A DNA stretch of 64,000 nucleotides from Muribaculaceae bacterium Isolate-110 (HZI). GTDB lineage: Bacteria; Bacteroidota; Bacteroidia; Bacteroidales; Muribaculaceae. Below are positions 54,327 through 63,323 of this stretch, one piece after another (the stretch's first letter is position 1; each line of letters starts with the position of its first letter). The stretch is taken from NCBI GenBank assembly GCA_003762875.1, contig RIBL01000001.1:124001-188000 (forward strand), in the 5' to 3' direction. Made by a program: the position numbers and the translations under genes. The notes beneath the pieces are model-generated. The model was not told the DNA's origin. It did no database searches and worked only from the letters and a program-made list of their open reading frames with translations.

Positions 54327-55934
54327 TTACTTTCTGCGCTCGCGATAGGTCACGTCGACAATGTTCTCGCCAAAGCCTTTATACTCTTTGTAGAGCGACA
54401 TTTTGCCGGCAGTGTCCACGTTGTAGAAACGTACTATGCCGCTGTCCTCTCCACCTGTTGTCGAGCAGACGATGAGCTTGTATTGCATGCTCTGAAATTC
54501 CTCGTCCTCCCACTTGTTGAGGTTGGTGAGTACCATATTGCCGTAGAGGTTAAACTTGATCAGTGTCGTAGTCTCTGAGCCGTCAAGTGTCAGGATGTCT
54601 TTGACCGAATTGTCGACAAGACCGTAGGAGTAGACCTTGTTACCCTTGCAGTAGAACATATATGGAAACTGTGAGTGGAAGGCATAGTCGGTAGCCGTGT
54701 CAAAATTCTCACCGGTCAGGTTGTCATAGGCCGACTCCTTCTTGATGCTGTTGTAGCCCGAGAGGTTGATGCCGTAGACGTGACGGTGGCCTGTGTTGTC
54801 CTGAAGTACGGTATAGACAAGGCCATTGGAGAATCGGGTGCTCTCCATGTCGACAAAATCCATGCCTGTGTTGAATGAGAAAAGACCCTGGGGCTGGTTT
54901 TCATCATTGTCGTTGAGCGGAAAAAGGAGCTTGTTGTTGCTGGCATAGTAGCTCCAACCCATAAAACGCTTGTTGGTGATGTCATAAAACAGAGCCGACG
55001 ATGAGTTGCCTTGACGTACCATACTTGTGCCGATGGCCTGGGCAACCTTGTAGGAAGGCTTGTCGCCGACTTTTTCGGCGTTTAGTGGATATTCATATGA
55101 GGCTCCGGCTCCGGACGATGTAATGGCATAGGCATCGCCTATGTCGGTGACACATGTTGTGGCTGTTGGTCCGTAGCTTCCGTAATACATAATTTGGGAA
55201 ATTTGGGTGGGAGATCCCTCGGTAGTGGGCATTACGAAATCAAGTAGCTTGAGGTCACTGGATGCGAGTATCTGCATATCGTCCCACACGCGATAGCTGC
55301 CCGATTTGGTAAGGATGTTGACACATTCCTTGCCGGCATACATGCTCGGGAAATACATAGCCTGGGTACCTTCGGTCAGACCTGTAACCTTAGGACCTGT
55401 GATGTTCTTGGCTATGAGTTCACGGCCTTTGGAGTCGGTGAAAATCATGTCAAGACGCATTGTCTTTTCTGCTCCGCAGTTAGCCATTACCATCCATCCT
55501 TCATAAACTGAACTGATGAGACGGATTGAGCCTTTGGCATGCGACTCCACGCCTGTCCGCTTGTTTCTTGCGGTATACCAGAGGGTGTATGTTCCGGCCG
55601 GAGCCTCGACAAAAAAGTCGACAGCCATGGTTTTGTCGGGATTGATATCATACCATTTTTCAGAGATGCCGTCAATGGTACGCGTGTAGTATACACGACA
55701 TTCATATTCATAGTTGGGGTCGTCGGGCGAAATCTCCTTACCGGTGGTGGATGAGACTATTGTGGGTGAAAACTGAATGTTTTCTGCATTGGCCATGGCC
55801 TCGATTGCCGAGGGGAGCGTTATGGTCAGTTCCTCGATCTCGGTATAGTCATAATTGCCCTTGTCTTCATAGCAGCCGGTCAGGACCATTGAGGTCGCAA
55901 GCAGACCGAGCGTACGGAGTATATTGAGTTTCAT
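54327..55934 (-). CDS. PKD-like family lipoprotein
   Basis: A 535-residue surface lipoprotein (signal MKLNILRTLGLLATSMVLTG, then Cys; followed by YEDKGNYDYTEIEELTI, the standard opening of the PKD-like Bacteroidetes lipoproteins). An Ig/PKD-like beta domain (about 30-150: EAMANAENIQFSPTIVSS, APAGTYTLWYTARNKRTG) precedes a propeller-like C-terminal region. It is the last gene of the SusC-SusD-DUF4843-PKD operon. The function is not established; such proteins are thought to sit on the surface with SusCD. Confidence 0.78.
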   Translation of the reverse strand: MKLNILRTLGLLATSMVLTGCYEDKGNYDYTEIEELTITLPSAIEAMANAENIQFSPTIVSSTTGKEISPDDPNYEYECRVYYTRTIDGISEKWYDINPDKTMAVDFFVEAPAGTYTLWYTARNKRTGVESHAKGSIRLISSVYEGWMVMANCGAEKTMRLDMIFTDSKGRELIAKNITGPKVTGLTEGTQAMYFPSMYAGKECVNILTKSGSYRVWDDMQILASSDLKLLDFVMPTTEGSPTQISQIMYYGSYGPTATTCVTDIGDAYAITSSGAGASYEYPLNAEKVGDKPSYKVAQAIGTSMVRQGNSSSALFYDITNKRFMGWSYYASNNKLLFPLNDNDENQPQGLFSFNTGMDFVDMESTRFSNGLVYTVLQDNTGHRHVYGINLSGYNSIKKESAYDNLTGENFDTATDYAFHSQFPYMFYCKGNKVYSYGLVDNSVKDILTLDGSETTTLIKFNLYGNMVLTNLNKWEDEEFQSMQYKLIVCSTTGGEDSGIVRFYNVDTAGKMSLYKEYKGFGENIVDVTYRERRK

Positions 55935-55960
55935 ATTTTTCAGAATATACGGTTTGATTG

Positions 55961-56806
55961 TTACTCATAAGCTGAATAGTCGACTGCGTAGGAGCCGGGG
56001 AGCTGCATCAGAGAGCCGTCATCCTCGCGGGCTGGAGTCCCAGCGTCAGCAAGTTCCTGAAGATGCTTTTGGAAAGCCTTGGCTGCAAAGTCCATACGGC
56101 CATACTGTACTTTGGAAGAGCCAGAGCCTCCGCTATTCCAGTCTGCGTATGTCCAACCCATAGCTTTCTCCAATTCAAGCATCTTGGTGGGTGTGAATGG
56201 TCCAAAATAACTATCGCCAAACCAGGCCCAATAACTGGGTTCATTATACTCTTCAGTGAAACGTATTGCATAGGTAACAGCAGACAGAGAATCAGCGGGG
56301 ATTTCCCAAGAGCCTGAGTTGCGATAAGAATCGAAGATGATATCAAAATTCTCGTTGGGTTGCAGACGCAGTTTCAGTACTAAAGAAGACTGACGTAATG
56401 CCGGAGTGCGAATGAGTGTGACGATACACGTATCCATGGTTTCTCCCGGATGGATAATGAAGTCGTTTCTCGACAGCGAGAAGTCAACACCCTCCACGGC
56501 GGTAGTGACAGCCTCGTCGATAGCAAGAGCGTAGCGGCGCGGATAGTTGGTTACTCCGCCAATCGTACGAACATAGAAGCGCAATGGTATTTCCGTAACA
56601 TCGGCTGTATATGATGCAAACGAGAATGTGGTGGAGTCCATGTAGGACGACACGAGACCGGTGGTCATATTGGTGCCGGCTACCTGCTGGATAAATATGC
56701 CGTTTTTGGGGCCGCTGTAAGGCTCGATTTCCTCATGAGAGCATGCAGCGATAGACGGCAGGAGCAGCGAACCTGCAGCAAGATATAATAGATTTCTGAG
56801 TTTCAT
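55961..56806 (-). CDS. DUF4843 family lipoprotein
   Basis: A 281-residue lipoprotein (signal, then SIAACSHEE). The text following (YSGPKNGIFIQ, FSFASYTADVTEIPLRFYVRTIG) and the C-terminal GSYAVDYSAYE match the DUF4843 family that accompanies SusC/SusD and PKD-like proteins in Bacteroidales. Residues 100-150 hold a Calx-beta-like stretch (GVDFSLSRNDFIIHPGETMD). The spacing is 12 bases after SusD and 26 before the PKD-like gene. The function is not known. Confidence 0.8.
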   Translation of the reverse strand: MKLRNLLYLAAGSLLLPSIAACSHEEIEPYSGPKNGIFIQQVAGTNMTTGLVSSYMDSTTFSFASYTADVTEIPLRFYVRTIGGVTNYPRRYALAIDEAVTTAVEGVDFSLSRNDFIIHPGETMDTCIVTLIRTPALRQSSLVLKLRLQPNENFDIIFDSYRNSGSWEIPADSLSAVTYAIRFTEEYNEPSYWAWFGDSYFGPFTPTKMLELEKAMGWTYADWNSGGSGSSKVQYGRMDFAAKAFQKHLQELADAGTPAREDDGSLMQLPGSYAVDYSAYE

Positions 56807-56818
56807 AAGTAGGGAATA

Positions 56819-58306
56819 TTAATAGTTTTCACCTGAGGGGATGGGAACATTGTAGCGTAGCGACACTTCGGGATTGTCGCGGTTGGCTGCCTCATGGCCG
56901 TTGAAGTCGGAATTGGTGGTCGCGAACGACTGGTTGAAATGTTTGTGGAGGAAGAATATCTGACCCTCGCCTCGCATTTCGCGCAGAAACTCCATTTTGA
57001 GCTCTTTGAGTAAGTCTGCCGGTGAGTCGGTGTCAAGAAGCTCGATACCTCGGGCGGCTTTGACCTGATTGATGTAGCCGCACGCACCCTTGGTGTCACC
57101 AAGTCCGTTGAGAGCTTCGGCGGCTATATAGTAGGCCTCGCTCTTGCGCATGAGTCCGTAGAAGGTAGCCCAGAACTCGGGATTGGTAGAGTTGGTGGTG
57201 AAACTTTTATACTTGATGAAGTCAAGTTCGCCGCCGCTTATGGATGTCGAGCCGGTCCACTGCGACTGTCGACGATAGTCGGCCGTGTTGGGGAAGAGTA
57301 TGTCGGTGTATCCGTCGCGAGGTTTCATAACCACAGCGGGGTCGAGAGTGCCGTTGAAGTTCTGGGTAAAAATCTCCGCCATCTTGCTGTCGTAAAATCC
57401 GAAAAGACACTCGGTGGAGAATATGCGGTCGGGATTGCTGCTGTTGGCGAGAAGTTTTACGGGGTCGACCCACGGGAAACATGACTGAGCATAGGCGTCG
57501 TCGGTGATTTTGCGAGCTTCGGCAAGCGCGTTGGAATAGTCCTGCACCCATATGTAGGCACGAGCCTTGAGCAGCGTGGCCGCATAGTAGTTGAGACGCA
57601 ACTGACGGTAGCGAAACCAGTTGCCGTCCTCGCCGCCGTCGGAGCTGAGCACGCCTTCGGTCAGTATGGGGTCGCAGTCCTTGAGAAGATTCTGTGCTTC
57701 GGTCAGATCGGGAATAATCTTATTGTAGATTATGTCGCCGAGAGGCATGCGCTCGCGCTTGATGATCTCGGATGCGTCGGCATAAGGCACTGTCAGTCCG
57801 TCGGGATTGACGACGTAGACGGGGCCGAAGATACGCACGAGGTCGAGATGGAGCATGGCGCGGGCGGCAAGCATCTCGCCGCGTATCATTGTGGCGTCCT
57901 CTGGAAGAAGCACGCCCTGCTTCTCGTCGAGAGCCTGGAGAAGCACGTTGATGTTGAGCAGAGTATTGTAGGCTGTCGACCAGATGCTGCTTATAGTACC
58001 CGAGGCATAGGTGCCTGTGTAGGCCGCGGTGCACAACTCATATTTTGAAGTGCTGGAGTTGGTAATTTTATAGCAAAGACCCATGATGTCGAGCGCGCCG
58101 TATGACAGGTTGGAGCCGTAGAGGGCTGAGCCGGTCATTGTGTTGTAGATGCCGTTGACTGTGGTGTGAAAACCTGTGCGGTTATTGAACTGCTCGTCAT
58201 ATGTCTGCTTGTCCTTGGGGGTATAGTCGAGCCAGTCGGAACACCCTGTTGAGGCGAGACCAAGCGCAATGAGAGCTGCTGCGGTGATTGATTGGTATAT
58301 TTTCAT
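56819..58306 (-). CDS. RagB/SusD family outer membrane lipoprotein
   Basis: A surface lid and substrate-binding partner of the SusC transporter. Of 495 residues, the signal ends at STGCSDWLDYTPKDKQTYDEQF, the usual SusD start. The tetratricopeptide-type helices follow (LHLDLVRIFGPVYVVN, YYAATLLKARAYIWVQDYSNA), as does the C-terminal EMRGEGQIFFLHKHFNQ segment of the family. The final residues PIPSGENY are typical. It follows SusC by 21 bases. Confidence 0.9.
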   Translation of the reverse strand: MKIYQSITAAALIALGLASTGCSDWLDYTPKDKQTYDEQFNNRTGFHTTVNGIYNTMTGSALYGSNLSYGALDIMGLCYKITNSSTSKYELCTAAYTGTYASGTISSIWSTAYNTLLNINVLLQALDEKQGVLLPEDATMIRGEMLAARAMLHLDLVRIFGPVYVVNPDGLTVPYADASEIIKRERMPLGDIIYNKIIPDLTEAQNLLKDCDPILTEGVLSSDGGEDGNWFRYRQLRLNYYAATLLKARAYIWVQDYSNALAEARKITDDAYAQSCFPWVDPVKLLANSSNPDRIFSTECLFGFYDSKMAEIFTQNFNGTLDPAVVMKPRDGYTDILFPNTADYRRQSQWTGSTSISGGELDFIKYKSFTTNSTNPEFWATFYGLMRKSEAYYIAAEALNGLGDTKGACGYINQVKAARGIELLDTDSPADLLKELKMEFLREMRGEGQIFFLHKHFNQSFATTNSDFNGHEAANRDNPEVSLRYNVPIPSGENY

Positions 58307-58327
58307 AATCTGAATCTCTTAGGATGG

Positions 58328-61300
58328 TTAGAATGAGAAAGACAGCGCGAGCGTGTAGCTGCGGGCAAACGGGTAGGCTGTACCGCGCTCCTGCTTGATG
58401 GTCGACCACCAGAAGAGGTCGTTGCAGTAGAACGACAGGCGGAGTGACTCGAGCTTCAGACGCGAGGCCACGTCATAGAAGTCATAGCCAACGTTGAGCG
58501 ACTGGAGTGCCAATACATTGTTGCGCTGCACAAAGCGCGATGACATCGGGGTCGGTACCTTGTCGGCGATGTCCTTGAACTGTGCTATGTCGCCTGGTTT
58601 CTGCCAGCGGTCATAGAAGGCGCGCTTGTCCTGGTTGTAGATCATCTGAGACGAGGAGATGTTTTCAACCTTGTTGAAGAGAGCATCGTTGAAGGCCTTG
58701 CCTCCGAGTTTGTAGGTGAAGTTGATGCTTACCGACAGGCCCTTGTAGTTGAAGTTAGAGCCAAGCGAGCCCTCGATTTTGGCGCGGGTGTTGCCTACGA
58801 TGGTCTCGTCGTCGGGATTATAGTCATAGGTGTAGGTGCCGTCGCGCTTGATAAACATTTCTTTACCGTTGGAGGGGTCGATACCGGCCGAGGGTACGGC
58901 CCAGATGGCGTCGGGGTCAGCTCCGTCAAAGTAGCGTTTGGTCGTGGTGTTCTTGCCTATCTGGTTGAGGTCGTCGAGAATACCGTTGAGTTTGTCGAGC
59001 TTGATATCCTCGTGGCGGAGTGTACCGCGTATGCTCCAGGTGAGACGGTTTTTGAGATTGCGGAGTATATAATACTGGGCCGAGGCAAGCACGCCGCGCG
59101 ACTTCTGGATGCCGAGATTGGTGTTCCACAGGCCGGTGATACCGGTCGAGAGGGGCACTGACACTCCGATGAGCAGAGGGTCGGTGTTCTTGTCATAGTA
59201 GTCTACCTCGAGGCTTACGCGGTCGGTGCGGAAGTCGAGACCGATGTTACGGTCGATGGTGGTCTGCCACTGGAGGTCGCGGTTGCCAAACTGGCCTATG
59301 ATGGTCGAGTTGCCGAAATAATTGAAGCTGTTGTAGAGAAACTTGTAGGTGATAAGCGAGCGTGCCGAGTCAAAGCCCTGGTTGCCTGGGTTGCCTATCG
59401 AGGCGCGGATCTTGAGCATTGACACGCTGGGGAAAGCCTCGCGGAAGAATCGCTCGTTCATGATGTTCCAGCCGAGGCCCACCGACCAGGTGTTGATAAA
59501 CTTCTTGGTCGAGCCGAATACCGACGAGCCGCTAAGCGCGTAGTTGGCATCGAGAAGATAGCGGTTGTCATAGGCATAGTTGAGGGTGGCGAGCAGGTTG
59601 GTCGAACGCTGTGTGTCCTCGTAATACTGGGGCACACCTCCCTCGGGATAGCCGTTTGAGAAGGAGGGATAGGTGTAGTTGCCCTCGGGGAAACCGACTA
59701 CGTTGTAGCCCTGGGTGAGAGTCTTGTTCTGCGAGGCCTTGAAGTCACCGGCAAAGTTGATGCGGTGGTTGCCGAACACGTCGGCATAGATGGCTGTGAA
59801 TGAGGCGTCGTAGCGTGTCGACTTCTGGTCGGTCGATGTAAACGAGCCCTTGCGGGTGCGGTCATAGCTGTCATAGCGGGTGTCCTCGGGCGAGATAAAG
59901 TTTTCGCCGTCGTTGGTGGTGTGGGTCAGACCCAGCTTACCGCGCAGACGCAACTGGTGTATGGGATTATACTCTATGATGAGGTAGTTGGTGAGAAGAA
60001 GCTGCGATTTTTCCTTGCGGCTGTTGAGCGTCGCGTTGTAGAGCGGATTGGCCGCGCGGGCAAAGTCGCTGTTCTCGAGCCAGCGGTTTACGTCACCGTT
60101 CTCATCATATTTCTTGTAATAGGGATTGGCCTTGGCATACTCGCTGAACTCTACCACGGGATCTTTGGTAGAGGTATATGAGGCCGAAAACTTGTTGGAG
60201 AACTGGAGCTTGTCGAGACGATAGATTAGGTCGAGCTTGCCTCCGTAACTGTCGCGCTTGGAGTCCTTCATCACACCAGTGGTGCCGGAATAGTTGGCTC
60301 CGATGCCAAACATGAATCCGTTGGAGCCACCGTCGACATATACGTCATGCTTGTGAGTCCATCCTGTGCGCAGAGGCACCGACAGCCAGTAGGTGTCGAC
60401 ACCGCTCGCCACAGCAGCGAGATATTCGTTGTATTTCTGGCTTAGAGTGATATAGTCGTTGGGGCCGGCTGACCATCCGGGGGTGTAGCGTCCGGCCAGA
60501 CGCTCATACTCGAGTTTCTCTGTCGCGTTCATCAGATTGTAGGATGTGAGGTCAGGAGTCGACACTGCGGCAGAGCCTGAGTAATTGAATCTCAACTGTC
60601 CGGCCTTGGGCTTGACAGTCTCCACTACTACCACACCGTTGGCAGCCTTGGAACCATAGATGGCGGTCGAGGCGGCATCCTTGAGGATGGTCATGGACTC
60701 GATGCGGTTGACATCCATATTGAACACAGCCTCGAGGGTCGACTCAAAACCGTCTACGATAAAGAGCGGCTGATTGGGGTCGTTGACGGCGTCATCACGC
60801 TCGCCGATTACCGACGACTTGCCGCGGATGTTGATGTCGGGCATGTTGTTGGGGTCGGAGCCGGCAAGATCGTTGGTGAGCATATTGAACGCAGGGTCGA
60901 GGGCGGCGAGCGACGCGAGGGGGTTTTGCACGCCTACTGACTTGAGCTCTTCGGCCGAGAAGGTTGACGCCGAACCTGTAAACGAGTTTTTGTCCTTGTT
61001 GACGATACCTGTCACCACCACTTCGGAGAAACTTTCGGTGTCGTCCTCAAGAATGACACGCATATGGTGGCCGATGACGGCTTTTATTTCGACAGGTTTT
61101 TTGCCGATATAGCTGAAAGTGACAATATCGCCTGTGTTGCCATGGATGGAGAAGGCACCGTTGATGTCGGTGACTGTCGCGATGTTCTTTTTAGGGACTT
61201 TCACGGTCACGCCGGGAAGCGGCTCCCCTTCGGCGTCAAATACGAAACCCGTGATCGATGACTTGCTCGTCGCATATCCTGCTGTCCCTGCGCCGGTCTG

Positions 61301-61378
61301 CTGGGAGTAAATGTCCGGCGACCCTGAGAACAAAAACAGGACTAACAACAGGAATAGATGAAGTCCTTTAGCTTTCAT
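58328..61378 (-). CDS. SusC/RagA family TonB-linked outer membrane protein
   Basis: A TonB-dependent transporter of 1,016 residues. Signal peptide (1-25), carboxypeptidase-regulatory-like domain (ITGFVFDAEGEPLPGVTVKV), plug with the SusC hallmarks PLFIVDGFE, NMDVNRIESMTILKDAASTA and YGSKAANGVVVVET, and a C-terminal barrel ending YTLALSFSF. It is the first gene of the SusC-SusD-DUF4843-PKD operon. The promoter at 61515-61545 contains an 8-G run in its spacer. No glycoside hydrolase, sigma/anti-sigma pair or hybrid sensor is nearby in the window, so a glycan role is not supported; the neighbours upstream are redox and peptide genes. Confidence 0.92.
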   Translation of the reverse strand: MKAKGLHLFLLLVLFLFSGSPDIYSQQTGAGTAGYATSKSSITGFVFDAEGEPLPGVTVKVPKKNIATVTDINGAFSIHGNTGDIVTFSYIGKKPVEIKAVIGHHMRVILEDDTESFSEVVVTGIVNKDKNSFTGSASTFSAEELKSVGVQNPLASLAALDPAFNMLTNDLAGSDPNNMPDINIRGKSSVIGERDDAVNDPNQPLFIVDGFESTLEAVFNMDVNRIESMTILKDAASTAIYGSKAANGVVVVETVKPKAGQLRFNYSGSAAVSTPDLTSYNLMNATEKLEYERLAGRYTPGWSAGPNDYITLSQKYNEYLAAVASGVDTYWLSVPLRTGWTHKHDVYVDGGSNGFMFGIGANYSGTTGVMKDSKRDSYGGKLDLIYRLDKLQFSNKFSASYTSTKDPVVEFSEYAKANPYYKKYDENGDVNRWLENSDFARAANPLYNATLNSRKEKSQLLLTNYLIIEYNPIHQLRLRGKLGLTHTTNDGENFISPEDTRYDSYDRTRKGSFTSTDQKSTRYDASFTAIYADVFGNHRINFAGDFKASQNKTLTQGYNVVGFPEGNYTYPSFSNGYPEGGVPQYYEDTQRSTNLLATLNYAYDNRYLLDANYALSGSSVFGSTKKFINTWSVGLGWNIMNERFFREAFPSVSMLKIRASIGNPGNQGFDSARSLITYKFLYNSFNYFGNSTIIGQFGNRDLQWQTTIDRNIGLDFRTDRVSLEVDYYDKNTDPLLIGVSVPLSTGITGLWNTNLGIQKSRGVLASAQYYILRNLKNRLTWSIRGTLRHEDIKLDKLNGILDDLNQIGKNTTTKRYFDGADPDAIWAVPSAGIDPSNGKEMFIKRDGTYTYDYNPDDETIVGNTRAKIEGSLGSNFNYKGLSVSINFTYKLGGKAFNDALFNKVENISSSQMIYNQDKRAFYDRWQKPGDIAQFKDIADKVPTPMSSRFVQRNNVLALQSLNVGYDFYDVASRLKLESLRLSFYCNDLFWWSTIKQERGTAYPFARSYTLALSFSF

Positions 61379-61514
61379 AAAAGTTGGGAATTGATAAATG
61401 ATTGGTTAATGATAGAGATTATTGCATTTTTAAAAAGCCCCGACGAAGTAGTTTATAACTGATAAAAAGAGAAACATGTCAGACGTGACGACTACTGATG
61501 TTAGCGACTTTTTG

Positions 61515-61545
61515 CAAATTTATACAAAAATTTACCCCCCCCAAA
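61515..61545 (-). promoter_or_regulatory. SusC operon promoter with G8 tract in the spacer
   Basis: On the minus strand TTTG (61542-61545), 19 bases, TAAATTTG (61515-61522) fits the Bacteroidetes consensus. The spacer begins with seven G that, with the last base of TTTG, make a run of eight G (61535-61542). The leader to the SusC ATG is about 130 bases. Confidence 0.65.
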
Positions 61546-61593
61546 TTTTTTAACACTCATTAACTCTTATTAACAGCACCGGAAAGCGAAACA

Positions 61594-61630
61594 GGGGTAC
61601 GGGAGTTAAATCAAAAAACTCCCGTACCCC
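61594..61630. terminator. Hairpin after the short peptide gene
   Basis: A perfect 14-bp stem (61594-61607 with 61617-61630) with a 9-base loop lies 23 bases past the peptide stop and before the SusC promoter. Confidence 0.55.
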
Positions 61631-61653
61631 CTAATCTAAGAAAAATCGTGTAT

Positions 61654-61770
61654 CTATTGTTTCGGGCGTATGCTGTGCCTGTCGGGGATGCGAAACTTGT
61701 TGAGTTCGGCGGCCGACAGCACGTGTGCCCCCGGCAGATCGGGACACTTTATCTGTTTAATCTTTTCCAT
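61654..61770 (-). CDS. Predicted 38-residue peptide overlapping the VKOR gene
   Basis: An open frame too short for usual gene finding, starting ATG 61770 and ending TAG 61654. The peptide begins MEKIKQIKCPDLPG, has one cysteine (Cys9), then HVLSAAELNKFRI and a basic end (RHSIRPKQ). The LSxxELNKF block resembles in place the recognition segment of short Bacteroidales leader-type peptides (normally LSxxEMxxIxGG), but the double glycine is missing. It overlaps the end of the VKOR gene by 14 bases, a coupling usual for real genes. It could be a maturation substrate, a small partner protein, or chance. No signal peptide. Confidence 0.5.
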   Translation of the reverse strand: MEKIKQIKCPDLPGAHVLSAAELNKFRIPDRHSIRPKQ

Positions 61771-62749
61771 TTTCAAATTTTGGCAATATCCTGTTGAGTA
61801 TTAGCAGGACGGTGAGATAGGTCATTCCGAGCACCACTGCATCAATGCGCAGCGGGAAGATGCCGTCAAACCATCCGCCGCCCAGATAGCAGAAAAACAG
61901 ACACCATAGCGTGCATTGCACACTGACACACAGTGTGCACCAAGCTCCGGCGCGGAAATGCTGATACCATATGCTCCACAGCGTGTAGGGGAGACAGCAG
62001 GCGTTGAAGAGGGCCAGGCAGGGGAGACTCTGCGGGAAAACAAGCAGCGCGAGCAGATTGACGGAGAAATAGGTGAAGCCGATTTCACTCCATCCGAAAA
62101 ATCCCATCAGCTTGGATGCCGAGGTCTCGAGAATGCTGTCACATCCGCCCTCCTGAAGCACCTTGCACACCTCATCGGCCGCCCGGCTGTGAATCCTGAG
62201 CGATTTCTGCACGAGCAGGTATGTGAAATAGAGTCCGGCGAGGTTGAAGAGTGTTAGCAGGATTGTCGACACATGTGCGTAAATATGGTTGCTTACAAAC
62301 AGGTAGACAAAAAGCAGCAACACACCGGCTACTATGCCCTTGTCACGCAGACGTGTCAGCAGTTTCACACGCCGGTGGGCGGCATAGTCAGGCTCGCATG
62401 CGTCCTCGTGTGGAAATCCACAGAAAGCCACGCCGCTCCACGCTTCGGTCCACTTGTCGCGCGGAGTGCTCTCGTCTGCTCCCTGCGAGAGACAGCTGAC
62501 ACTCTTGTCGTCGACCGAGGTCACTATCACGAGGCCGCTGTCGGTGGGGGCTATGAACGGCACAGGGAGCTGTGAGAGCTGCGATTTGTCGGCCACACGA
62601 TAGGCGCGGGTGTCCACGCCATACTTTTCAAGCAGCTTGGAGAGTCCGAAGAGTGTTCTGAACGGCATGGATGCCATTTCGTCGGCGGCATATTCGTCAG
62701 TATAGGGCACGCCAAGCAGTCCGAGATAATCCGACAGTATATTTCCCAT
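61757..62749 (-). CDS. VKOR family protein with degenerate C39-like N-terminal domain
   Basis: A 330-residue membrane protein. Residues 1-90 resemble the C39 peptidase domain of bacteriocin exporters (LFGLSKLLEKYGVDTRAY, QLSQLPVPFIAPTDSGLVIV) but no catalytic Cys is seen in the expected place, so it is probably a binding domain. Residues 135-320 hold five hydrophobic segments of the vitamin K epoxide reductase fold with all four redox cysteines: Cys195 and Cys203 (seven between, as in bacterial VKOR) and the CxxC at 271-274 (WCTLC). Such enzymes reoxidise periplasmic thiol oxidases. A thioredoxin gene lies just upstream and a peptide gene overlaps its end. The C39-VKOR fusion is known near peptide genes in Bacteroidales. 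Confidence 0.75.
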   Translation of the reverse strand: MGNILSDYLGLLGVPYTDEYAADEMASMPFRTLFGLSKLLEKYGVDTRAYRVADKSQLSQLPVPFIAPTDSGLVIVTSVDDKSVSCLSQGADESTPRDKWTEAWSGVAFCGFPHEDACEPDYAAHRRVKLLTRLRDKGIVAGVLLLFVYLFVSNHIYAHVSTILLTLFNLAGLYFTYLLVQKSLRIHSRAADEVCKVLQEGGCDSILETSASKLMGFFGWSEIGFTYFSVNLLALLVFPQSLPCLALFNACCLPYTLWSIWYQHFRAGAWCTLCVSVQCTLWCLFFCYLGGGWFDGIFPLRIDAVVLGMTYLTVLLILNRILPKFENGKD

Positions 62750-62786
62750 TTTTAGTTGCCCTGTTTAGTTGCCCTTCGGGCAAAGG

Positions 62787-62894
62787 TTATAAGGTTATGA
62801 GTAGGGCTTTCTATTTCTTTTTAAGCTATTCCTTTTTTTGCTGTTCCTCTTTAGCTTATAAGGTTATGAGGCCAGGGCCTCATAACCTTATAAG
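62787..62894. repeat. TTATAAGGTTATGAG repeats and 19-bp hairpin
   Basis: TTATAAGGTTATGAG occurs at 62787-62801 and 62856-62870. The second copy forms the left arm of a perfect 19-bp hairpin (62855-62873 with 62876-62894, 2-base loop). A similar ATAAGGTTATGGG lies at 19993-20005. It occupies the gap between the thioredoxin and VKOR genes and has no clear T-run. Confidence 0.65.
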
Positions 62895-62903
62895 AGTTTT
62901 TGC

Positions 62904-63197
62904 CTATGGCTGTTGTTCGACTTTGCTCAGTAGCACGTCGCCCTGTATCTCGCCGCTGTGACGCCACACTTCGGTGCCGTTTTTGTAGACGATGAATGTG
63001 GGCACCGAACGTACTCCGGCTTCGTCGGCCTCGGCGGAGTTTTTGTCAATGTCGAGCTGTACTACGGGTACGCGTCCGTCAAGAAGCTCTTTTACCTGCG
63101 CGACAACAGGTTCCATACCGCGGCAGTGGGGACACCAGGTGGCAAAAAATTCTACGAGTATCACCGGGTCAGTGTTGATCAATTCATTATAAGTCAT
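62904..63197 (-). CDS. Thioredoxin family protein
   Basis: A 97-residue single-domain thioredoxin without signal peptide, so cytoplasmic. The active site is WCPHC (Cys22, Cys25), more like DsbA/PDI-type CPHC than the usual CGPC, which favours a more oxidising potential. The cis-proline is in SVPTF (Pro66). At 97 residues it is slightly short at the ends. It lies 154 bases before the VKOR gene on the same strand and is probably its functional partner, although the two act on opposite sides of the membrane unless the VKOR domain is inverted. It diverges from gmd. Confidence 0.85.
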   Translation of the reverse strand: MTYNELINTDPVILVEFFATWCPHCRGMEPVVAQVKELLDGRVPVVQLDIDKNSAEADEAGVRSVPTFIVYKNGTEVWRHSGEIQGDVLLSKVEQQP

Positions 63198-63291: not shown

Positions 63292-63323
63292 TTTGTATAT
63301 GTGAGGAATAAACCGTAATTTTG
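63292..63323 (+). promoter_or_regulatory. Promoter of gmd
   Basis: TTTG (63292-63295), 20 bases, TAATTTTG (63316-63323), 33 bases before the ATG. Confidence 0.6.

Follow-up and report, generated by a model that had tools for sequence, protein, structure and literature searches.

Within a 64,000-nucleotide (nt) stretch of contig RIBL01000001.1 of Muribaculaceae bacterium Isolate-110 (HZI) (positions 124,001 to 188,000; hereafter the window, in whose own numbering all coordinates of this locus are given), three genes follow each other on the minus strand: a thioredoxin gene, a gene for a membrane protein that joins a C39-like domain to a VKOR core, and a very short peptide gene. The features of this cassette are as follows.

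62904..63197, minus strand: thioredoxin gene, 97 amino acids (aa), motif WCPHC (PF00085, E 4.5e-23), by eye without a signal peptide
61757..62749, minus strand: gene of the C39-like/VKOR membrane protein, 330 aa (PF07884 and PF03412 matches)
62375..62749, minus strand: C39-like domain, residues ~1-125, with the catalytic Cys, His and Asp gone (Pfam, exporter alignment, column counts)
62291..62347, minus strand: additional transmembrane helix 5' of the VKOR core, residues ~135-153 (family hydropathy; pairs in the alignment with transmembrane helix 1 of a C39 ATP-binding cassette (ABC) exporter)
61928..62167, minus strand: VKOR redox cysteines C195, C203, C271 and C274 (each in 78/78 of the alignment)
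61654..61770, minus strand: gene of the putative leader-mimic peptide, 38 aa, sharing 14 nt with the VKOR gene (conservation, selection)
61687..61719, minus strand: core of the peptide that resembles a leader, LSAAELNKFRI (register of double-glycine leaders, without Gly-Gly)

Here, we propose, with a probability of about one half, that this cassette is a cytoplasm-facing disulfide machine derived from a peptide-maturation enzyme, with a dedicated leader-mimic peptide occupying its C39-like domain. A first-pass annotation of the window had already described a CPHC thioredoxin, a VKOR with four redox cysteines and a degenerate C39 domain, and each of them was recovered at the same place and on the same strand. 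The peptide begins with an ATG at 61770, inside the end of the VKOR gene, and its stop codon ends at 61654.

Is this arrangement common in the family? We surveyed 119 genomes of Muribaculaceae, and as a second set the loci from named genomes, i.e. the best 80 of 171 relatives, which include Duncaniella muris, Paramuribaculum intestinale and Barnesiella sp. WM24; the two sets share some genomes, e.g. L118 and G090, and some titles of metagenome-assembled genomes give unlikely genera. The VKOR protein was matched in 52 of the 119 family genomes, 49 of which carry a short form and three the long form only (G047, G105 and G110, frames of 525-536 codons). Directly downstream of the short form, on the same strand and at a spacing of -10 to +145 nt, the peptide was found in 46 of 49 genomes. 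A peptide profile (A1, built from 26 peptides) gives matches with E values up to 1.4e-6 in 46 genomes, always beside the short C39-VKOR, and no significant second copy was found anywhere in the 119 genomes (next-best match E 0.015). Among the named loci, a thioredoxin lies upstream of the C39-VKOR in 75 of 80, with the motif CPHC in 66, CGHC in 7, CQHC in 1 and CSHC in 1, and the peptide lies downstream in 77 of 80; the latter count is a lower bound, as L096 was scored without a peptide, yet G043, whose contig is equally long, has one by profile search. Across the order (393 genomes), four genomes, all of the window's family, were the only source of matches with at least 40% identity. The genes of thioredoxin, C39-like/VKOR protein and peptide are a recurrent cassette of Muribaculaceae. 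One sister clade of the short form (L078, L203 and L204) has neither the peptide nor an adjacent thioredoxin, and in L204 the neighbouring gene resembles by eye a metal P-type ATPase.

The first-pass annotation had predicted an overlapping 38-residue peptide gene, and the overlap, the homologues in 46 genomes and the pattern of substitutions bear this out. Over 49 peptide pairs of 60-99% identity, the pooled ratio of nonsynonymous to synonymous differences (pN/pS) was 0.32 (pS 0.72, pN 0.23); pS is close to saturation in many pairs, and the unsaturated pairs L133/L152 and L090/L118 gave pS 0.60 with pN 0.09 and pS 0.17 with pN 0.01, respectively. The consensus of 77 peptides, MKxIxxPxLxSAxxL[TS]PxE[LM]NxIRFxxxHTVLTPExLE, contains an invariant Asn24 (77/77), and cysteine is absent from 56 peptides, present once in 19 and twice in 2. 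The peptide is a real gene under purifying selection and is tied to the C39-like/VKOR protein. Since 47 of the 77 peptides begin before the end of the VKOR stop codon, with start codons as chosen by us, their production by translational coupling with the VKOR gene is suggested.

The enzyme itself combines an intact redox core with an altered peptidase domain. The VKOR match (PF07884) reaches 40 bits at a cut-off of 27.5 and is the sole one in the host genome; every cysteine of the pairs Cx7C (C195, C203) and CxxC (C271, C274) is kept in all 78 sequences of alignment A3 (the window plus 77 named loci out of 80). The C39 match (PF03412) is close to its cut-off, with 23.6 against 22 bits, and covers profile positions 46-124 of 133 only. 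Of the catalytic residues of peptidase C39, Cys reaches at most 4 of 78 sequences in any column of residues 1-85, and His at most 14 in any column of residues 61-90; the exporter His aligns to Gly and the exporter Asp to Ser. A search of the PDB returned five sequences at E 0.01 or better (4ry2 and others), all of them C39 ABC exporters, which we take to be PCAT1, and the match spans the C39 domain together with the first transmembrane helix (whole-sequence E 2.6e-6). The domain appears to keep the C39 fold and, having lost the protease residues, is apparently a dead protease.

What could such a domain hold? In the peptide, L18, E22, L/M23 and I/L26 are spaced like L-12, E-8, L-7 and I-4 of double-glycine leaders, the usual contact positions of the latter. 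An hhalign comparison of the peptide profile with nine double-glycine leaders, hand-picked from the neighbours of C39-VKOR-thioredoxin fusions (see below), aligned the two in register with a probability of 77 and E 2e-5, and the leader-core pattern was found in 72 of 77 peptides versus 3.3 on average in shuffled sequences (maximum 8). At the cleavage place, [GA][GAS] occurs in 3 of 77 peptides and is absent from the window copy, Phe-Ser being the commonest pair there (22). The window's peptide has no Gly-Gly site, no Cys-rich core and, by eye, no signal peptide. Of the earlier proposal that the C39-like domain recognises a small peptide, the part that concerns the ligand holds in so far as the conserved stretch resembles a C39-type ligand, which the domain may bind. 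The only C39 match of the host genome is the C39-like/VKOR protein, so no C39 exporter was found there. Beyond the C39-VKOR, a full-length C39 match is absent from 26 of the 46 peptide genomes and present in 20, although draft contigs may conceal some of these genes. An exporter is not required for the cassette, and export of the peptide appears doubtful.

On which side of the membrane would the redox centre work? In 76 short forms (two of 78 were dropped, their Cys patterns not being found), the mean number of Lys plus Arg is 3.76 in the loop of the Cx7C pair, 2.99 in the CxxC loop and 0.07 in the opposite loop. Rows for comparison came from 18 of 46 other loci (L053-L068, L170-L199): 13 fusions have 2-5, 1-3 and 0-1, respectively, and VKORs without a C39 domain have, in the same loop order, 0, 0 and 2 (L174, the canonical pattern), 1, 1 and 3 (L189) or 2, 1 and 2 (L191). 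Canonical VKORs act at the periplasmic face, the C39 peptidase of exporters is cytoplasmic, and by the positive-inside rule positive charges mark the cytoplasmic side. Since one helix lies ahead of the VKOR core, the redox centre and the C39-like domain should share one side of the membrane, and the loop counts combined with the positive-inside rule would place this centre in the cytoplasm. By charge rule and exporter homology, the VKOR redox centre is predicted to face the cytoplasm. Leaders are removed on export, hence a maturase of leader-bearing precursors must work in the cytoplasm, which agrees with this prediction.

The relatives of the enzyme point to its probable origin. Outside the window's family there were 20 matches, of which 16 are frames 517-558 codons long and the rest have 453, 352, 160 and 101. 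Four fusions were scanned with Pfam: C39, VKOR and Thioredoxin_4 are all over cut-off in L065 and L066, L057 has VKOR, Thioredoxin_4 and a near-miss C39 (20.9 bits versus a cut-off of 22), and L067 has VKOR and Thioredoxin_4 only. In a tree built from the window, a sample of every fourth short form among the remaining 77 of A3, three divergent short forms and 17 fusions, all 24 short forms fall, with midpoint rooting, into a single clade (support 0.90) nested among the fusions. They probably descend from a C39-VKOR-thioredoxin fusion that formed disulfides in double-glycine Cys-rich peptides before their export. Downstream of the fusions L065, L066 and L067, Pfam identifies a C39 ABC exporter. 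The pattern for double-glycine peptides occurs beside 5 of 17 fusion entries, i.e. at 3 of 13 distinct places (L032/L062, L033/L063, L034/L064 and L035/L066 being duplicates), and it misses forms recognised by eye at L053, L056, L065 and L067.

Two further observations concern the surroundings of the fusions. Small double-glycine Cys-containing frames lie, by eye, between fusion and exporter in L065, L066 and L067, and L064 looks alike; in L065 (7674-11631), L066 (8870-13003) and L067 (7919-13002), the Cys frames are followed by the C39 ABC exporter and a HlyD-type gene, called by Pfam in L065 and by eye in L066 and L067. These three are probable bacteriocin-like clusters with a disulfide enzyme of their own. 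Fusions of the window's family adjoin group 1 glycosyltransferases (Pfam for L057, 8061-9362, and L060, 2159-3409; by eye for L059, 6204-7487, and L054), and small Cys-containing frames lie near L057, L059 and L060. The neighbourhoods of these four fusions are reminiscent of glycocin clusters.

How does the cassette compare with known systems? The fusions of Bacteroidota share with it the C39-like domain, the extra helix, the VKOR Cys pairs and the loop charges, but they carry a fused Thioredoxin_4 domain where the cassette has a free upstream CPHC thioredoxin (PF00085), and some of them adjoin double-glycine Cys-rich peptides and C39 exporters, whereas the cassette peptide has neither Gly-Gly nor a Cys core. 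With PCAT1 and other C39 ABC exporters it has the C39 domain and first transmembrane helix in common; unlike them, the cassette protein has no protease residues, is not accompanied by an ABC exporter and is joined to a VKOR. The C39-like domain of type I secretion ABC proteins such as HlyB is likewise a non-proteolytic C39 fold used for binding, but it sits on a transporter and not on a redox enzyme. Double-glycine leaders of class II bacteriocins and of ribosomally synthesised and post-translationally modified peptides (RiPPs) follow the same register (L-12, E-8, L/M-7, I/L-4), from which class the cassette peptide departs by its lack of a Gly-Gly, a Cys core and a dedicated exporter. The VKOR of the archaeon Aeropyrum pernix reportedly has a topology that permits disulfides in two compartments (so the title of Hibender et al. 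2017); unlike the cassette VKOR, it is archaeal.

In the open-licence full text of PubMed Central (PMC), a collection outside which most subscription papers lie, we found nothing on a VKOR together with C39, or with a bacteriocin and a leader peptide, and no named system for the C39-VKOR-thioredoxin fusions. Among the titles there, nothing on the cassette came up under VKOR in Muribaculaceae, under VKOR with Bacteroides and bacteriocin, under VKOR topology, under the A. pernix enzyme, under C39, double-glycine and thioredoxin, or under a leader in trans. The words 'VKOR' and 'vitamin K' are absent from the main text of PMC10352776 and PMC13289728.

Taking the locus and its relatives together, we infer topology, redox activity, partnership with the thioredoxin, the binding of the peptide and its effect, and the physiological substrate along the following lines. 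The C39-like domain would no longer cut, would retain the fold that holds a leader, and would be located in the cytoplasm. A helix like the first helix of an exporter would connect it to the VKOR core, and because of this junction with a cytoplasmic domain the core would sit upside down, with its four redox cysteines on the cytoplasmic side. There, the VKOR may oxidise the free CPHC thioredoxin encoded upstream and pass the electrons to quinone. The peptide would serve the C39-like domain as its dedicated ligand, occupying the leader groove as a small subunit, and could either activate or hold the enzyme in the absence of cargo or tether its HTxLTPxxL tail to a partner. We speculate further, and only tentatively, that the peptide is a natural leader in trans: a coreless, uncleavable subunit, one per genome, which resides permanently in the leader-binding domain of an inverted VKOR, so that a maturation enzyme once specific for its cargo peptides would have become, in Muribaculaceae, a cytoplasmic generator of disulfides that is always on, or else a redox sensor.

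Several observations weigh against this proposal. Three short forms (G007, G092 and G106, a branch of their own) have no peptide and no adjacent thioredoxin, i.e. no thioredoxin frame within ~1.8 kb upstream. In the exporter match, the best single stretch has E 1.4e-4 and the helix part is aligned with middling confidence, and no VKOR structure was matched in the PDB at E 0.01, which leaves Pfam and the cysteines as the basis of the VKOR assignment. Regarding topology, L190 has 3, 0 and 2 Lys/Arg, hence 3 in the Cx7C loop, the 161-aa VKOR L184 departs from the canonical pattern with 5, 2 and 1, and the Cx7C loop of the short forms also averages 3.5 acidic residues. A bare leader would not need the C-terminal HTxLTPxxL segment that most members keep, and the window's own peptide is devoid of most of this tail. 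Full-length C39 peptidases are commoner where the peptide is present (20/46 versus 14/73, Fisher p 0.006), an enrichment that argues against a complete separation from export. Lastly, coupling between peptide and C39 domain is weak: over 74 loci (effective number of sequences 69), an analysis too weak to position the peptide, C39 columns contribute to 65% of the top 20 pairs against a background of 96/230 columns, and their share falls to 50% of 50, 40% of 100 and 35% of 200 pairs.

The enrichment of C39 peptidases and the kept tail would both fit a different role, in which the peptide is a small precursor whose leader is bound by the C39-like domain and whose HTxLTPxxL segment is secreted, as a signal or an antimicrobial, via another export route. 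The leader resemblance of the core and the conservation of H-T-x-[LI]-T-P-x-x-L in most members (Thr36 in 64/72, Pro37 in 65/73) speak for it as well. We nevertheless consider it unlikely, given the scarcity of [GA][GAS] at the cleavage place (3/77), a variable C-terminus that is shortened in the window copy, L144 and L162 among others, the 26 of 46 genomes without a full-length C39 exporter, the single conserved copy per genome and the 56 of 77 peptides that offer no Cys to a disulfide enzyme. The peptide as a substrate family with paralogues was also considered and rejected, as the 119 genomes contain no second significant match.

The acidic residues of the Cx7C loop, which offset its Lys and Arg, bear on a second alternative: the VKOR would face the periplasm as usual and form general envelope disulfides, with the C39-like domain exported or placed otherwise and the peptide as a structural subunit. 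Canonical VKORs do work at this face, and the single VKOR match of the host genome would suit such a general task. This explanation is, in our judgement, improbable, because 76 short forms and 13 fusions show the opposite Lys/Arg distribution to that of canonical VKORs, no signal peptide is seen by eye on the N-terminal domain or the thioredoxin, and the C39 domain with its first helix matches an exporter whose peptidase is cytoplasmic.

The cassette is adjoined downstream by a SusC operon, for which the first-pass annotation had envisaged a joint function.

61593..61631, minus strand: strong hairpin at the boundary of cassette and SusC operon, a probable terminator with a short U-tract
61515..61545, minus strand: Bacteroidetes-type promoter match TTTG-N19-TAAATTTG 5' of the SusC operon, outside the cassette
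54327..61378, minus strand: SusC-SusD-DUF4843-PKD_2 operon (Pfam), judged unrelated to the cassette
58328..61378, minus strand: SusC gene
56819..58306, minus strand: SusD gene
55961..56806, minus strand: DUF4843 gene
54327..55934, minus strand: PKD_2 gene

The operon had been described as lacking carbohydrate enzymes, which holds for its four genes by Pfam, with no library of carbohydrate-active enzymes searched. Between peptide and SusC, a hairpin of 15 pairs (folding energy of the 73-nt stretch -30.8 kcal/mol, z -6.0) was not listed by our general hairpin scan, as its loop of 9 nt exceeds the 8-nt limit; because its U-tract (UGUUUCG) is short, a role as terminator is probable and not certain. 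The window contains six matches to TTTG-N19-TAAATTTG, which we take to be the Bacteroidetes promoter consensus, versus 0.61 expected. Neither the hairpin nor the promoter match before SusC figured in the first-pass annotation. In the flanks of the 80 named loci (up to 4 kb; downstream at least 1 kb in 74 and at least 3 kb in 63), no match to the window's SusC or SusD was found at E 1e-5. At the loci of three SusC orthologues from the same genus (G117, 89% identity; G710, 72%; G706, 70%), the four genes of the operon stay together and are preceded by different genes, and neither a VKOR nor a thioredoxin match occurs in 14 kb; G117 has no C39-VKOR match in its whole genome.

The idea that the peptide is matured here and then handed over to the adjacent SusCD transporter, or imported by it, is favoured by the adjacency in this single genome, and is very hard to maintain given the hairpin and separate promoter match before SusC, the 0 of 80 cassette loci with SusC or SusD nearby and the three orthologous operons without a cassette beside them, the closest in a genome without a C39-VKOR match. 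We rejected the link of SusCD to the cassette on these three lines, neighbourhood, hairpin and orthologous operons, and judge the adjacency incidental. Of the recurring neighbourhood that had been looked for, the trio recurs (thioredoxin 75/80, peptide 77/80) and SusCD does not; likewise, of 'peptide maturation plus outer-membrane transport', a leader-like peptide tied to the C39-like/VKOR protein stands and the role of SusCD falls. Finally, the view that the peptide is a chance open frame, which its shortness, its overlap with the VKOR gene and the lack of a credible Pfam or NCBIfam match for 26 family members (best E 0.016, single members) might encourage, can practically be dismissed in the face of an adjacency kept in 46 of 49 genomes, Asn24 in 77 of 77 peptides and a pN/pS of 0.32.

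Other elements lie around these genes. A second Bacteroidetes-type promoter match (63292-63323, plus strand) is found 5' of a divergent gene from 63321 onwards, which resembles by eye GDP-mannose 4,6-dehydratase. Between the thioredoxin and VKOR genes there is a palindromic element with TTATAAGGTTATGAGG arms (62855-62894 and 62787-62800); the TTATAAGGTTATGAGG motif occurs at 39 places of the genome with at most one mismatch versus 0 for the reversed control, and the element looks like a dispersed repeat. It accompanies a wide thioredoxin-VKOR gap of 155 nt, the gaps elsewhere being -3 to 67 nt, and 142 nt in L087.

If our proposal is true, an enzyme for the maturation of secreted peptides has been domesticated, with the cargo given up and its address tag retained as a permanent subunit. 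The C39-VKOR-thioredoxin fusions suggest a route by which bacteriocin-like peptides of Bacteroidota may receive their disulfides before export. Muribaculaceae are prominent in the mouse gut, and the presence of the cassette in the cultured strains Duncaniella muris DSM 103720 (L118) and Paramuribaculum intestinale DSM 100749 (L109) makes the proposal directly testable. The family would then possess, in 49 of its 119 sampled genomes, a bacterial disulfide-forming enzyme that faces the cytoplasm.

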